The notes beneath the pieces were generated by a model, which saw nothing but the letters and a program-made list of their open reading frames with translations, was not told where the DNA came from and searched no databases. A stretch of DNA of 64,000 nt, taken from assembly GCA_013141055.1 (NCBI GenBank), contig JABFRS010000001.1, forward strand, positions 2,290,567 to 2,354,566, in the 5' to 3' direction. This document shows positions 54,221 through 57,784 of this stretch, one piece after another. Numbering within the stretch: the first letter of the stretch is position 1; the number at the start of each line of letters is the position of its first letter. The position numbers were made by a program, and so were the translations under genes. The stretch is from Cyclobacteriaceae bacterium (GTDB lineage Bacteria > Bacteroidota > Bacteroidia > Cytophagales > Cyclobacteriaceae).

Positions 54221-54574
54221 ATGACTGATAATATCAAAATGGGAGAGCAGGGGGAAGATCTGGCGGCGGCATTCCTTCAGGAAAAAGGTTTTACCATCCT
54301 GGAAAGGAACTTTCGTTTTAAGAAATCAGAAATCGATCTGATTGTGAGTCGCGGAAACTGGCTGGTTTTTATTGAAGTAAAAACGAGAACATCAACGGCT
54401 TTCGGATATCCCGAAGAATTTGTTGACTACAAAAAGAAGAAAATGATTTTCGAAGGAGCGCTTGAATATATGTATCGCCAAGACTGGCAGGGGAATGTTC
54501 GATATGACATCGTAGCCGTAAATATTTATGGCCATAAGCACAAGATTCGTCACATTGAAGATGCTTTTTACTAG
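54221..54574 (+). CDS. YraN family (UPF0102) nuclease-fold protein
   Basis: A 117-residue protein with the YraN pattern: KMGEQGEDLAAAFLQEKGFT, SEIDLIVSRGNWLVFIEVKT with the acidic Asp and Glu-x-Lys of a restriction-endonuclease-like core. The family is predicted to act on nucleic acids, but its role is not established. It is convergent with the hybrid kinase gene, with only 4 bases between stops. Confidence 0.92.
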   Translation: MTDNIKMGEQGEDLAAAFLQEKGFTILERNFRFKKSEIDLIVSRGNWLVFIEVKTRTSTAFGYPEEFVDYKKKKMIFEGALEYMYRQDWQGNVRYDIVAVNIYGHKHKIRHIEDAFY

Positions 54575-54578
54575 CGAA

Positions 54579-56201
54579 CTATTGCCCGCTAGCCTCTGCG
54601 ATGTATCTGTCGAATGAGATTACACATCTTGAAAGATGTTTATGAAAGACAGCTTGCCGGACAGGTTTGGAGATTATTGAATTGAACAGATCGCCCTCTT
54701 TTTTAGCCCTTTCATTGTCTTTCGGACTCAAAAGGATTACAGGAAGAGAAGAATGAAATTTTCGAATCGCTTGTCCCAACTGAACACCATCAAATCCCTG
54801 CATCTTTAAATCTGTTATCACAAGATCAAAGCTTGATCTTTCCGATAAGAATTTCATCGCTTCAAATCCGGAAGCAGCAGCAGTAACATTCATTTTCCAC
54901 CGTTGCAACTGGTCTTTTAAAACATTAAGGCTGATGGAATGATTATGCACCAGCAGAACATTTTTGCCCTCGAGCTGATCGGTTTCAAAATTCTCAGTTC
55001 CCTTAAAGCGGTTTGCATCAGTCTTGAATTTGATTGCAAAGGAGAAGGTTGATCCCTTCCCTCTGTGACTTTCCATCACAATAGTTCCACCCATGAGCCT
55101 CACGAGATTTTCACAAGTCGGTAAACCTAATCCGGTACCACCATACTGATCGTTGCTTAAATTATCGGAGTAACTGGATGACTTGAACATACTGACGGCA
55201 CTTTCATAGTGAATTCCATATCCAGAATTGTGGATCTGAAAATCAAGAGTATGAATGTCGCCTTCTGTTTTCACAACCTGCACATCAATGAAGATGTCTT
55301 CAACCTGTTGTGTGAATTTTAACACATTTGCAATAAGATTAGTCAAGACTTGCTTCAAGCGGAATGCATCTCCCCAAATTTGAACAGGCACATCATCTCT
55401 TAATCGATATACCAGATCAAAATCGATGTCGCCTGACTTACTGGCGAAGACTTCCAAAACGTCTTCAATACAGCGACGAAGATTGAATTCCTTTTCATCC
55501 AGCTTGATTTGTCCAGCCTCAATCTTAGCAAAATCAAAAATATCATGGACAGCGGATTGCAGATCATTCACATGATTTTCGATTGCGGCGGAACATTCGT
55601 GCATCTCTTTGGTGAGCTGTACTTCTTTTAGCGAAGAGGAAATCTCCTTTAAGCCATTCAGAGGCGAATTCACTCCGTAGCTTATCATTGCCAGGAGATT
55701 GGCCTTTGTTTGTTCTGACTTTTCTGTTTTCTCGATTTGGTCTTCAAGACTTTTCTGAAGGGAGTCAAACTGTCCTCTTAATTTTAAAAGAGAATCGGAA
55801 TGAATCCGAACTGTTTTTACCTGTCGAAGGACCTCTTCATTTCTTTCTATCAGCTCATTCTCAAAAGCTCTTCTCATTTTCTGAATGGTGCGCACTCTGA
55901 GACGTTGAATGAAAAGCAGAATACCTACGATCAGAAATCCTGCTGAGAAACGAAACCATGCTGATTCCCAGAACACAACCTTTACAGGCGGTGTTGCAAG
56001 ATGAATAGGCCGATTACTAAACGAATCATACTCCTTTAGAACCGTAAAAGTATGATTAGCCACAGGAGATATTTCTTCTTCATGCGTACTCTGTGCGAAT
56101 GAGAAAAAAGTGGCAGTCAATAAGATCAAGATCATTGTAAGCCTGAATATTTTCAGCAGGACTTTTTTGTCGTGTTCGGAAAATTGTTTGTATTCAGACA
56201 T
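54579..56201 (-). CDS. degenerate hybrid histidine kinase (predicted pseudokinase)
   Basis: A 540-residue membrane protein. A first helix (about 19-36) and a second (about 84-98) flank a short periplasmic segment; the PPVKVVFWESAWFRF stretch resembles the end of propeller-type sensor kinases. A coiled coil precedes the DHp domain, where the usual H-box (SHEIRTPLNG) reads SYGVNSPLNG, with Tyr175 at the phospho-accepting His. The ATPase N-box NLIANVLKFT and the GGTGLGLPTCENL lid are kept, but the G1 Asp is Asn325 (IHNSGYGI). The C-terminal receiver has HN (419-420) instead of the acidic pair, yet keeps Asp464 and Lys512. Autophosphorylation on His is therefore unlikely; ATP binding may persist. 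It follows the small membrane protein gene by 13 bases. Confidence 0.9.
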   Translation of the reverse strand: MSEYKQFSEHDKKVLLKIFRLTMILILLTATFFSFAQSTHEEEISPVANHTFTVLKEYDSFSNRPIHLATPPVKVVFWESAWFRFSAGFLIVGILLFIQRLRVRTIQKMRRAFENELIERNEEVLRQVKTVRIHSDSLLKLRGQFDSLQKSLEDQIEKTEKSEQTKANLLAMISYGVNSPLNGLKEISSSLKEVQLTKEMHECSAAIENHVNDLQSAVHDIFDFAKIEAGQIKLDEKEFNLRRCIEDVLEVFASKSGDIDFDLVYRLRDDVPVQIWGDAFRLKQVLTNLIANVLKFTQQVEDIFIDVQVVKTEGDIHTLDFQIHNSGYGIHYESAVSMFKSSSYSDNLSNDQYGGTGLGLPTCENLVRLMGGTIVMESHRGKGSTFSFAIKFKTDANRFKGTENFETDQLEGKNVLLVHNHSISLNVLKDQLQRWKMNVTAAASGFEAMKFLSERSSFDLVITDLKMQGFDGVQLGQAIRKFHSSLPVILLSPKDNERAKKEGDLFNSIISKPVRQAVFHKHLSRCVISFDRYIAEASGQ

Positions 56202-56214
56202 ACAGATGGTGATT

Positions 56215-56418
56215 TTATTTAACTGAACTTGATTGCAGACTTGCTGTCTGAACGGAGGCAGCAGCGCTTTCTTCCTGTAAAGGATCAGTACTTGCTACTG
56301 TATTTTTTTTCATTGTGAATGAAAAGAATGTAACTAGGATCATAACAAATAAGACCGCAAGTCTTAAAAGTTTCAAGTGAACCTTTTTTCCTGATGTGTA
56401 TGGATCGTGGTATGACAT
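56215..56418 (-). CDS. small membrane protein sharing the kinase N-terminus
   Basis: A 67-residue protein with one membrane helix (about 19-35). The N-terminal GKKVHLKLLRLAVLFVMI continued by LVTFFSF is clearly related to the first 35 residues of the adjacent kinase (DKKVLLKIFRLTMILILL, then TATFFSF). The rest is a Ser/Ala-rich tail ending in ASLQSSSVK. The two genes lie in one operon. It may anchor or hetero-dimerise with the kinase; this is inference. No family is recognised. Confidence 0.75.
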   Translation of the reverse strand: MSYHDPYTSGKKVHLKLLRLAVLFVMILVTFFSFTMKKNTVASTDPLQEESAAASVQTASLQSSSVK

Positions 56419-56442
56419 AATAATTGGGTTTAAATTGTTTGT

Positions 56443-56784
56443 TTAGTTGAGTCTTGGATTTTTTTCGTTTTGATTTGCTTCGAGGCTGTTGACAATTTCA
56501 ACACAAAGCCTGTTAAAGGATGCTGCCTTCTCTTCGTTGCTGTTATCTGATTTAATCTCTTCGACGATGTCAATAAATTCTCTGTCATCAAGCATGTTAA
56601 GAGTTGAGTTTATCTTGTTACATACTCTTTTGTAAAAGGAGATTTCATTAAACCGAAAAGACAACTGAAGTGACTGCTGCAATTCCATTAAGTCTGAAAC
56701 CATCATCTTGATCAGTTCCTTCTTAAAGTCAGGATCACCGTGCGCATACAAACTGAAATCGATATAGAGCGGCCTGTGGACCAT
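56443..56784 (-). CDS. Hpt-like protein lacking the phospho-histidine
   Basis: A 113-residue helical protein. Residues 9-65 follow the Bacteroidota Hpt pattern: a Tyr/Asp-rich start (IDFSLYAHGDPDFKKELIKM), a second helix with a Phe/Leu core, and the block where Hpt proteins have AHKMKPS. Here that block reads VCNKINSTLNML, with Asn56 in place of the phospho-accepting His. It would be the first gene of the operon with the membrane protein and degenerate kinase. Assignment to Hpt is by pattern, so confidence is moderate. Confidence 0.65.
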   Translation of the reverse strand: MVHRPLYIDFSLYAHGDPDFKKELIKMMVSDLMELQQSLQLSFRFNEISFYKRVCNKINSTLNMLDDREFIDIVEEIKSDNSNEEKAASFNRLCVEIVNSLEANQNEKNPRLN

Positions 56785-56950
56785 ATAATTGTTGTTTTTA
56801 TATGGTCAAAGATCATGTTCCCGAACGCGCTGCGAATCAGGAGAAAACTTAATTAACAAAATCAGGAATTGGTCAGGTCATCGGGGAATCCCCCGAGACT
56901 GAATCTATAAAAGTGCTATTGGATGAAAATTTTAAGGATTGTGAATATCC

Positions 56951-57784
56951 TTAAACTCCTTTGCTGGATGTGAAGATCTCCCGACCTTTTTCATCCCATT
57001 CCTTTCTGACGAAAGGTTTGATCTCTTTTTCGAATGGCTCTTTAGGATAAGAGACAATCTTTTTTCGTTTACCGTTAGGATAGTTCTCTACCCAGTCGCC
57101 GACTTTTTCTCCCCATTTGTATTCACCTGTCACTGCGATATTTCCGTTTTCATGGAATAAAAAATAGAAGCCCTCGCGCTCATCTATTTCAATCGGGATC
57201 ATTTCCTTTACCTTTTTATGCTCTACTGCATCATAGTAAGTGACGATAGATTCTTTTGGCCAGCCTTTGTAGAACTTCTCTTTGTCATCCAGAATATCCT
57301 GGCGATCGTACTTCATCCATCGTCCATGCTTGGCGCCTTTGTAAAAAATACCTTCCTCCAGTACCACGGGTCCCTGCATTTTCTTGTAAGGTCCGTGAAG
57401 AAGGACACCTTTTTTTTGATCAAAGTTTCCTGAGCGACGGATCTCTCTTCTTGTAAAGTCGTACCAGAAAATATCACGAACGAATTCAGTAGGCTTATCG
57501 GGATACTTAAGCGTATAGAAAAGCTCAATGACAACCTTATCACCGAAGCCTTTACGTGTATAGCTTTTGCGTGTTTTTAATCCGTAAAATGTCTTCTTTT
57601 TTGGCTTCTTCTTTTTGGTAACAATTGGATCAGATGTTTTTTCATCCAGCTCCAGAAGCTTAAAGGGCTTGTCGGTTTCAAACGTGAATTGTCCTTCCTG
57701 TCCGAATGCTTCCTTCTTCCTCTCCTGACCATAGGAAAGCAATCCGAAGAGAATGAATAGAATAAGGAAAGAGGACTTCAACAT
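56951..57784 (-). CDS. exported MORN-repeat protein
   Basis: A 277-residue protein with a signal peptide (FLILFILFGLLSYGQ), a Lys-rich segment (about 57-66), and several MORN-like units: GVLLHGPYKKMQGPVV, GIFYKGAKHGRWMKYD, GYFLFHENG-type and GEYKWGEKVGDWVENYPNGK. It is related in repeat type to the YwqK lipoprotein elsewhere in the window but is longer. It has no lipobox. Its role is unknown; it lies downstream of htpG and is separated from it by a hairpin. Confidence 0.82.
   Translation of the reverse strand: MLKSSFLILFILFGLLSYGQERKKEAFGQEGQFTFETDKPFKLLELDEKTSDPIVTKKKKPKKKTFYGLKTRKSYTRKGFGDKVVIELFYTLKYPDKPTEFVRDIFWYDFTRREIRRSGNFDQKKGVLLHGPYKKMQGPVVLEEGIFYKGAKHGRWMKYDRQDILDDKEKFYKGWPKESIVTYYDAVEHKKVKEMIPIEIDEREGFYFLFHENGNIAVTGEYKWGEKVGDWVENYPNGKRKKIVSYPKEPFEKEIKPFVRKEWDEKGREIFTSSKGV

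Follow-up and report, generated by a model that had tools for sequence, protein, structure and literature searches.

The propeller-type hybrid kinases of Bacteroidota, in which Reg_prop, Y_Y_Y, HisKA and HATPase_c domains are combined with two receivers, carry the label HTCS, and RetS of Pseudomonas is a hybrid kinase whose reported mode of action is to pair with a second kinase. DivL from Caulobacter is a PAS-domain protein and a pseudo-histidine kinase with Tyr550, which is reported to be devoid of kinase and phosphatase activity, to bind ATP poorly and to be a partner of DivK~P (PMC4211667). In plants, the pseudo-Hpt AHP6 is reported to be a negative regulator, competing for kinases and response regulators with the normal Hpts (PMC6518804, PMC6963811). 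Taken one by one, Tyr pseudokinases (DivL) and Asn pseudo-Hpts (AHP6) are therefore known already. A bacterial operon pairing a pseudokinase with a pseudo-Hpt was absent from the literature searched, in which subscription journals are thinly covered, which is weak evidence. An earlier note on the DNA studied here knew of no described system of this form, without taking this as proof; for the pairing as such the literature searched agrees with it, but the locus proved to be a reduced derivative of a locus kind that is known.

The cassette lies in a window of 64,000 nucleotides from a Cyclobacteriaceae bacterium (assembly GCA_013141055.1, contig JABFRS010000001.1, positions 2,290,567 to 2,354,566); cassette coordinates are positions in this window, and its genome (G000, two contigs, 98.78% complete) is called the window genome. 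Three open frames without stops occupy positions 54579-56784 of the minus strand, separated by gaps of 13 and 24 nucleotides and preceded by a single conserved promoter element, which bears out the description as one tight cassette. They encode a 113-aa protein of the Hpt family with Asn56 at the phospho-His position (56443-56784), a one-helix membrane protein of 67 aa (56215-56418) and a sensorless hybrid pseudokinase of 540 aa (54579-56201). The borders, defined by their open reading frames and by synteny, are a YraN-like gene (54221-54574, plus strand) and a gene for a MORN-like secreted protein (56951-57784, minus strand). All residues named in the earlier note (Tyr175, Asn325, His419-Asn420, the N-box, Asp464 and Lys512 in the kinase and Asn56 in the Hpt) were recovered, and alignment confirmed that the phospho-residue is gone from both the kinase and the Hpt.

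The kinase scored above the curated Pfam cut-offs with all three profiles proposed for it, HisKA (27.7 bits, cut-off 26.9), HATPase_c (71.1, cut-off 26.4) and Response_reg (61.8, cut-off 30.2). A signal-anchor-like N-terminus is followed by a short loop, a second hydrophobic helix, a coiled coil, the DHp and CA domains and one receiver. The Reg_prop and Y_Y_Y sensor, which Pfam detects in the 1385-aa kinase of the related genome G054 and the 1379-aa kinase of G014, is absent, and so is the second receiver, which is kept by all eight other sensorless kinases examined. The reference for individual residues was a set of 14 intact hybrid kinases from its own family. Tyr175 occupies the H-box position, which is His in 14 of 14, and is followed by Gly176 in place of the Glu of the reference kinases; Asn325 replaces the G1-box Asp (14 of 14). 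In the receiver, His419 stands for an Asp present in all 14 and Asn420 for the second acid (13 Asp and one Glu), and the acidic pair for Mg2+ is missing. The N-box residues Asn288 and Asn292, the G2 glycines and the receiver residues Asp464, Ser492 and Lys512 are retained. Of 127 columns invariant in the intact kinases, 48 are lost here and 32 in the G054 ortholog. Both orthologs found, those of the window genome and of G054, have the H-box Tyr. A scan of GTDB r220 contigs for close relatives of the kinase yielded a single locus, in which 30% identity extends across a portion of the protein; in the window genome itself, the next-best match is a PAS-type kinase (31% identity), with none closer to this type. 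As far as the sequence tells, the window module has no means of relaying phosphate from its kinase to its Hpt through the usual residues.

The 113-aa protein did not match the Pfam Hpt model, one of the profiles proposed in the earlier note, nor an Hpt model in NCBIfam. The Pfam model also misses the G054 Hpt and the REC-Hpt protein of G014, the two relatives scanned. Membership therefore rests on profile comparison and architecture. A family profile of 36 rows (35 used) matched the Hpt domains of E. coli ArcB, BarA, EvgS and RcsD with an hhalign probability of 92.3% (E 5.5e-7 for a single comparison, 86 columns, His columns aligned), compared with 0.8% for a reversed template and at most 0.7% for 30 column shuffles. 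A smaller five-row profile of the family gave nothing specific against PDB sequences. Members are free-standing, C-terminal to a receiver or C-terminal to an HK-REC unit, and the position behind HK-REC is the usual place of an Hpt. By these comparisons the family of the 113-aa protein is a real Hpt family. Of 295 genomes belonging to the taxonomic family, 131 contain a match to it. Among the 40 distinct members that were fetched, a portion of all matches, 39 have the phosphosite His and the sole Asn is that of the window; in the tree set, from which members shorter than 85 aa were dropped, the His is found in 35 of 36. A single-sequence AF2 model, which is weak (mean pLDDT 70), has five helices and places Asn56 in helix 45-62; fold searches with this model gave nothing specific, with no Hpt structure among the matches listed.

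The 67-aa frame had been taken for an independent component. A one-helix membrane protein is indeed predicted, but it looks like a partial copy of the kinase N-terminus, with which it shares the pattern KKVxLKxxRL...TFFSF (protein score 68, best of 1000 shuffles 49). At the DNA level the comparison with the 5' end of the kinase gene gave a score of 17, and 613 of 1000 shuffles were as good. Searches of the 62 genomes of the genus yielded no convincing homolog: weak matches (E <= 0.1) occurred in 10 of the 62, the kinase N-terminus was matched weakly (E 0.009) and the best foreign match, in G055 (E 0.005), lies in a frame that contains a stop. Since this match is as good as that to the kinase N-terminus, the duplication reading is based mainly on the shuffle test. 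The frame is probably an old partial duplication of the kinase N-terminus, and the G054 locus has no space for it.

Kinase matches at E <= 1e-60 were found in three of the 62 genus genomes, the window genome, G054 and G014, the last being an intact propeller kinase, and the pseudokinase-Hpt pair is present in two of the 62 at the thresholds used. With a pair confined to two genomes, and a small frame lacking both a convincing homolog and space in G054, the idea that the three genes stay together among relatives could not be upheld. In 21 of 30 other relatives examined, about 100 bp or less separates the MORN-like from the YraN-like gene (19 of the 28 MORN loci for which 1.5-kb flanks were used, together with G049 and G051). 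These 21 include all nine relatives whose MORN genes rank next in similarity after that of G054 (66-81% identity). Of the other nine, eight have no detected YraN inside the flank, and in G023 the two genes stand 7 kb apart. No kinase or Hpt matches were found between the border genes in these 30 relatives. The roughly 7 kb of other DNA in G023 (L104, 9151-16305) indicates that the MORN/YraN junction may have taken up DNA more than once.

G054 is a draft genome (87% complete) with the only close ortholog found. The borders are the same there and enclose an Hpt that still has its His, a Tyr pseudokinase whose second receiver is intact, a thioredoxin-like gene and, on the same contig, intact hybrid kinases of 751 and 1385 aa; YraN is on another contig, next to two more hybrid kinases, a cut frame of 1021 aa and one of 1409 aa. 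Because the borders are shared, we infer that the two contigs represent one array. A thioredoxin-like / DUF6436 gene was observed within this array (L035, 5839-6435). Intact kinases thus adjoin the pair in G054; none is so close in the window genome. The simplest history would be that an Hpt-kinase module was inserted in the common ancestor and that intact kinases and receiver 2 were lost in the window lineage, while for some of the G054 kinase copies expansion after the split is a possible alternative. The downstream end of the cassette did not align with the end of the G054 array (score 15), and a deletion junction was therefore not located.

Since Tyr175, Gly176, Asn420 and His421 are common to both kinases, the pseudokinase state predates the split of the window and G054 lineages. 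Changes found only in the window, after the split, are those of the G1 Asp325, the receiver Asp419 and the Hpt His; changes found only in G054 are those of the N-box Asn292 and the first G1 Gly. The earlier note had regarded orthologues with intact His and Asp residues as evidence against its view. G054 does keep the Hpt His, the receiver Asp419 and the second receiver, but its kinase already has the Tyr. Furthermore, the ATP site was hit independently in both lineages, through the G1 Asp in the window and through Asn292 and the first G1 Gly in G054, which disfavours ATP dependence as a selected trait and thereby the suggestion of ATP-dependent signalling. The fully dead state, in kinase and Hpt, was found in one genome only.

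Sensorless kinases near an Hpt also occur in the genera g74 and g16, which belong to the same taxonomic family. Two-receiver kinases without a sensor were found in seven of nine other fetched clusters that contain both an Hpt and a propeller kinase (L135-L139, L141 and L142; not in L037 and L143), and the seven proteins are of about 592 aa. The H-box His and receiver 2 are present in seven of seven; the ATP-lid segment is lost in six, and Glu replaces the phospho-Asp of receiver 1 in six. They may or may not share an origin with the window kinase type, the support of the tree split being 53. A type IX sorting tail is found on a protein encoded nearby in two g74 clusters; Pfam scans of two other proteins, large or neighbouring (L195, 1867 aa; L136, 597 aa), gave no match. 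As judged from these residues, partial degeneration of the accessory kinase is recurrent in this taxonomic family. The joint loss of H-box His, receiver acids and Hpt His was seen in the window alone among the clusters examined, and by this comparison the cassette is the most reduced module of Hpt and accessory kinase among them.

Upstream of the cassette, at 56807-56867 of the minus strand, a promoter element with the form TCCTGATT-N17-TCCTGATT-N20-GATCTTTG ends 22 nucleotides before the start codon of the Hpt gene. It emerged as the best local alignment between the upstream regions of the window and G054 (28 of 34 positions identical, score 38, best of 2000 shuffles 30) and consists of TCCTGATT-N17-TCCTGATT followed after exactly 20 nucleotides by a -7-like box in both genomes, with both spacings unchanged. 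The element also precedes the Hpt gene in G054 and in some genomes of another genus. Three exact copies are present in the window genome (reversed control 0), upstream of the cassette, of a gene for a 2987-aa protein (DUF11-rich in the 1944-aa part that was scanned) and of a PorP/SprF gene with an OmpA-family gene next in line; the copies at the latter two loci have the form TCCTGATT-N17-TCCTGATT-N20-CACTTTTG and are located at C1:1939048-1939108 and C1:1948272-1948332 of G000 (L149, L150, L163, L164). Three nearly identical tandem short ORFs of 104-106 aa, GIY-YIG-like by eye, were observed at G000:C1:1953283-1954371 (L164).

In 15 genomes, which are not a random sample because most were chosen for carrying Hpt genes or propeller kinases, element and box together gave six mismatch-free sites (reversed control 0). 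In the window, G054, G269 and G282 such a site precedes an Hpt gene, which accounts for four of the six; the other two belong to the DUF11 and PorP/SprF genes of the window genome and lie before them. One mismatch added seven sites, and seven of the 15 genomes had none. With two mismatches, 11 further element-like sites appeared in the window genome; the sites in L152 and L160, found with a looser pattern and at most one mismatch, are both without the box. The three element-bearing loci are likely to form a small regulon. A NarL-type response regulator encoded near Hpt genes in G014 and G235 was considered as the reader of the element and rejected: its best relative in the window genome (54%, C1:3198135) has no element nearby, and the G054 draft has only a 37% relative. 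No regulator reading the element was found through such NarL-type candidates in these two genomes.

Between the window and G054, synonymous sites are near saturation (pS 0.72-0.85). The kinases share 48% and the Hpts 53% of their amino acids, compared with 75-95% for eight flank genes, and pN/pS of both kinase and Hpt exceeds that of all eight. Because NG86 gave an infinite dS for every gene except one, we relied on tree branches, 4-fold sites and a neutral simulation. The kinase branch is 0.93 in the window and 0.24 in G054 (bootstrap ratio 4.1, 2.6-6.7, n=40). The window Hpt branch (0.37) resembles that of its His-bearing G054 sister (0.42), with a wide interval for the ratio (0.85, 0.42-1.80, n=30), and the flank branches are 0.107 and 0.081 (ratio 1.3). 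At 258 4-fold sites of the flanks, the window branch amounts to 0.93 substitutions per site. Starting from the window kinase, neutral simulation left the frame stop-free in 3.5% of 200 runs at 0.05 substitutions per site and in 0 of 200 at 0.1; the stop-free state despite the long branch thus indicates that selection acted on the frames during most of the period after the split and that the bulk of the kinase change arose in a maintained gene. The Hpt His-to-Asn change may be recent and neutral, which would be compatible with the simulation. The aligned kinase core has no deletion and one inserted column. Among its changed positions, 22 of 35 are hydrophobic in the window kinase, compared with 0.595 expected at random, and 23 of 29 in G054, so this test gave no support for structural constraint in the window kinase. 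Of the decay marks that had also been named as counter-evidence, broken frames are absent despite the large divergence; the constraint on the kinase is relaxed.

We favour, narrowly over a decaying relic, the reading that the cassette encodes phosphate-independent binding proteins and descends, in reduced and orphaned form, from a phosphorelay locus for surface sensing, and we consider it about evenly balanced against everything else. The ancestral locus would have combined propeller-type hybrid kinases and a sensorless accessory hybrid kinase with an Hpt standing on its own, behind a promoter element that surface and secretion genes have as well. By the time of the split from G054 the accessory kinase had already turned into a Tyr pseudokinase, and the window lineage would then have lost the intact kinases and receiver 2, along with the G1 Asp, the Hpt His and the pocket of the remaining receiver. 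The cassette proteins are most likely still made, co-regulated with adhesin and secretion genes, and active through binding. By analogy with plant AHP6, the pseudo-Hpt would sit on receivers or kinases that belong to other relays; by analogy with DivL and its binding of DivK~P, the pseudokinase would associate with kinases or receivers. Here the partners and the direction of any effect are inferred. The age of the pseudokinase, frames that are open at saturated pS, an Hpt that is not accelerated and the conserved spacing of the element support this reading. It is weakened by a kinase branch 4.1 times that of its sister, by random-like core changes, by the loss of 48 of 127 columns and of receiver 2, and also by pN/pS values of kinase and Hpt above those of the flanks, by a dead state in one genome and by an element whose regulator was not found.

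Since the constraint on the kinase is relaxed, a relic is a serious rival, and we think it quite possible, though somewhat short of even. The accessory kinase would have been useful beside intact kinases, and after their loss both genes would be drifting, too recently for stops to appear. The intact kinases beside the pair in G054 and their absence so close by in the window genome fit this, as do the acceleration of the kinase with its random-looking core changes, the loss of receiver 2 and the restriction to a single genome; the one His-to-Asn change is compatible with a short neutral interval. However, the stop-free frames cap such an interval at about 5% of the branch, which corresponds to about 10% amino acid change, whereas the kinase has accumulated 0.93 amino acid substitutions per site; the Hpt shows no sign of acceleration (with its wide interval), and the promoter element is intact. 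A still catalytic variant, in which phosphate is carried by another residue (Tyr175 or a different His) or supplied in trans by another kinase, appears improbable to us. The N-box, the G2 box, Asp464 and Lys512 are kept, and acceptance in trans is plausible for the sensorless kind because the g74 and g16 kinases keep the His and receiver 2 yet have mostly lost the ATP-lid segment. The window copy, however, has lost the G1 Asp, the two acids of the receiver and the His of the Hpt, the last being otherwise conserved in 39 of 40 fetched members, and DivL, with a Tyr at the same place, is reported to have neither kinase nor phosphatase activity (PMC4211667). An error of sequencing or gene calling, or a chance resemblance, is hardly credible, given stop-free frames in a two-contig genome of 98.78% completeness, domains above the cut-offs, an ortholog with the same Tyr and an hhalign value of 92.3% against at most 0.8% in controls.

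Going beyond the binding reading, the folds of a phosphorelay (HK, receiver and Hpt) might have been kept as a phosphate-free binding circuit. Made from one operon, under a promoter element of the adhesin and secretion regulon that modules of this kind would control, pseudokinase and pseudo-Hpt would now tune this regulon by sequestering the receivers or kinases on which other relays depend; we put this forward tentatively and consider it rather unlikely in this full form. If true, it would provide a bacterial operon with pseudo-enzymes at both ends of a relay. Whichever reading applies, the operon and its partly active relative form a natural series, from a Tyr kinase with a His-bearing Hpt and intact partners in G054 to nothing catalytic in the window, in which the role of phosphorelay proteins in the absence of phosphate can be studied. 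Through the shared promoter element a regulon also becomes testable, one that would connect the Hpt modules of this bacterial family with genes for the cell surface and for type IX secretion.

Compared with the known systems, the window kinase matches the sequences of structure 4q20 (DivL) and of the RetS kinase-region structures 6dk7/6dk8; like RetS, it is a hybrid kinase, and the comparison with RetS covers this sequence match. Like DivL, the window kinase has an H-box Tyr in a histidine kinase fold, and DivL acts by binding a receiver; in contrast to DivL, a PAS-domain protein, the window kinase is sensorless, has a damaged receiver of its own and evolves fast. With the propeller-type hybrid kinases it shares the kinase family and the linkage to an Hpt, as well as the two-receiver layout in the G054 ortholog, but it is without the propeller, Y_Y_Y, the second receiver and several catalytic residues. 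The sensorless kinases of g74 and g16 are similar in their position near an Hpt, the missing sensor, the long branch and the partial degeneration, but they keep the H-box His and receiver 2 and have mostly lost the ATP lid and the receiver-1 Asp. The phosphosite His is changed to Asn in both AHP6 and the window Hpt, inhibitory competition being reported for AHP6; the window Hpt differs in being bacterial, in sharing an operon with its own pseudokinase and in having undergone an independent change in another Hpt subfamily.
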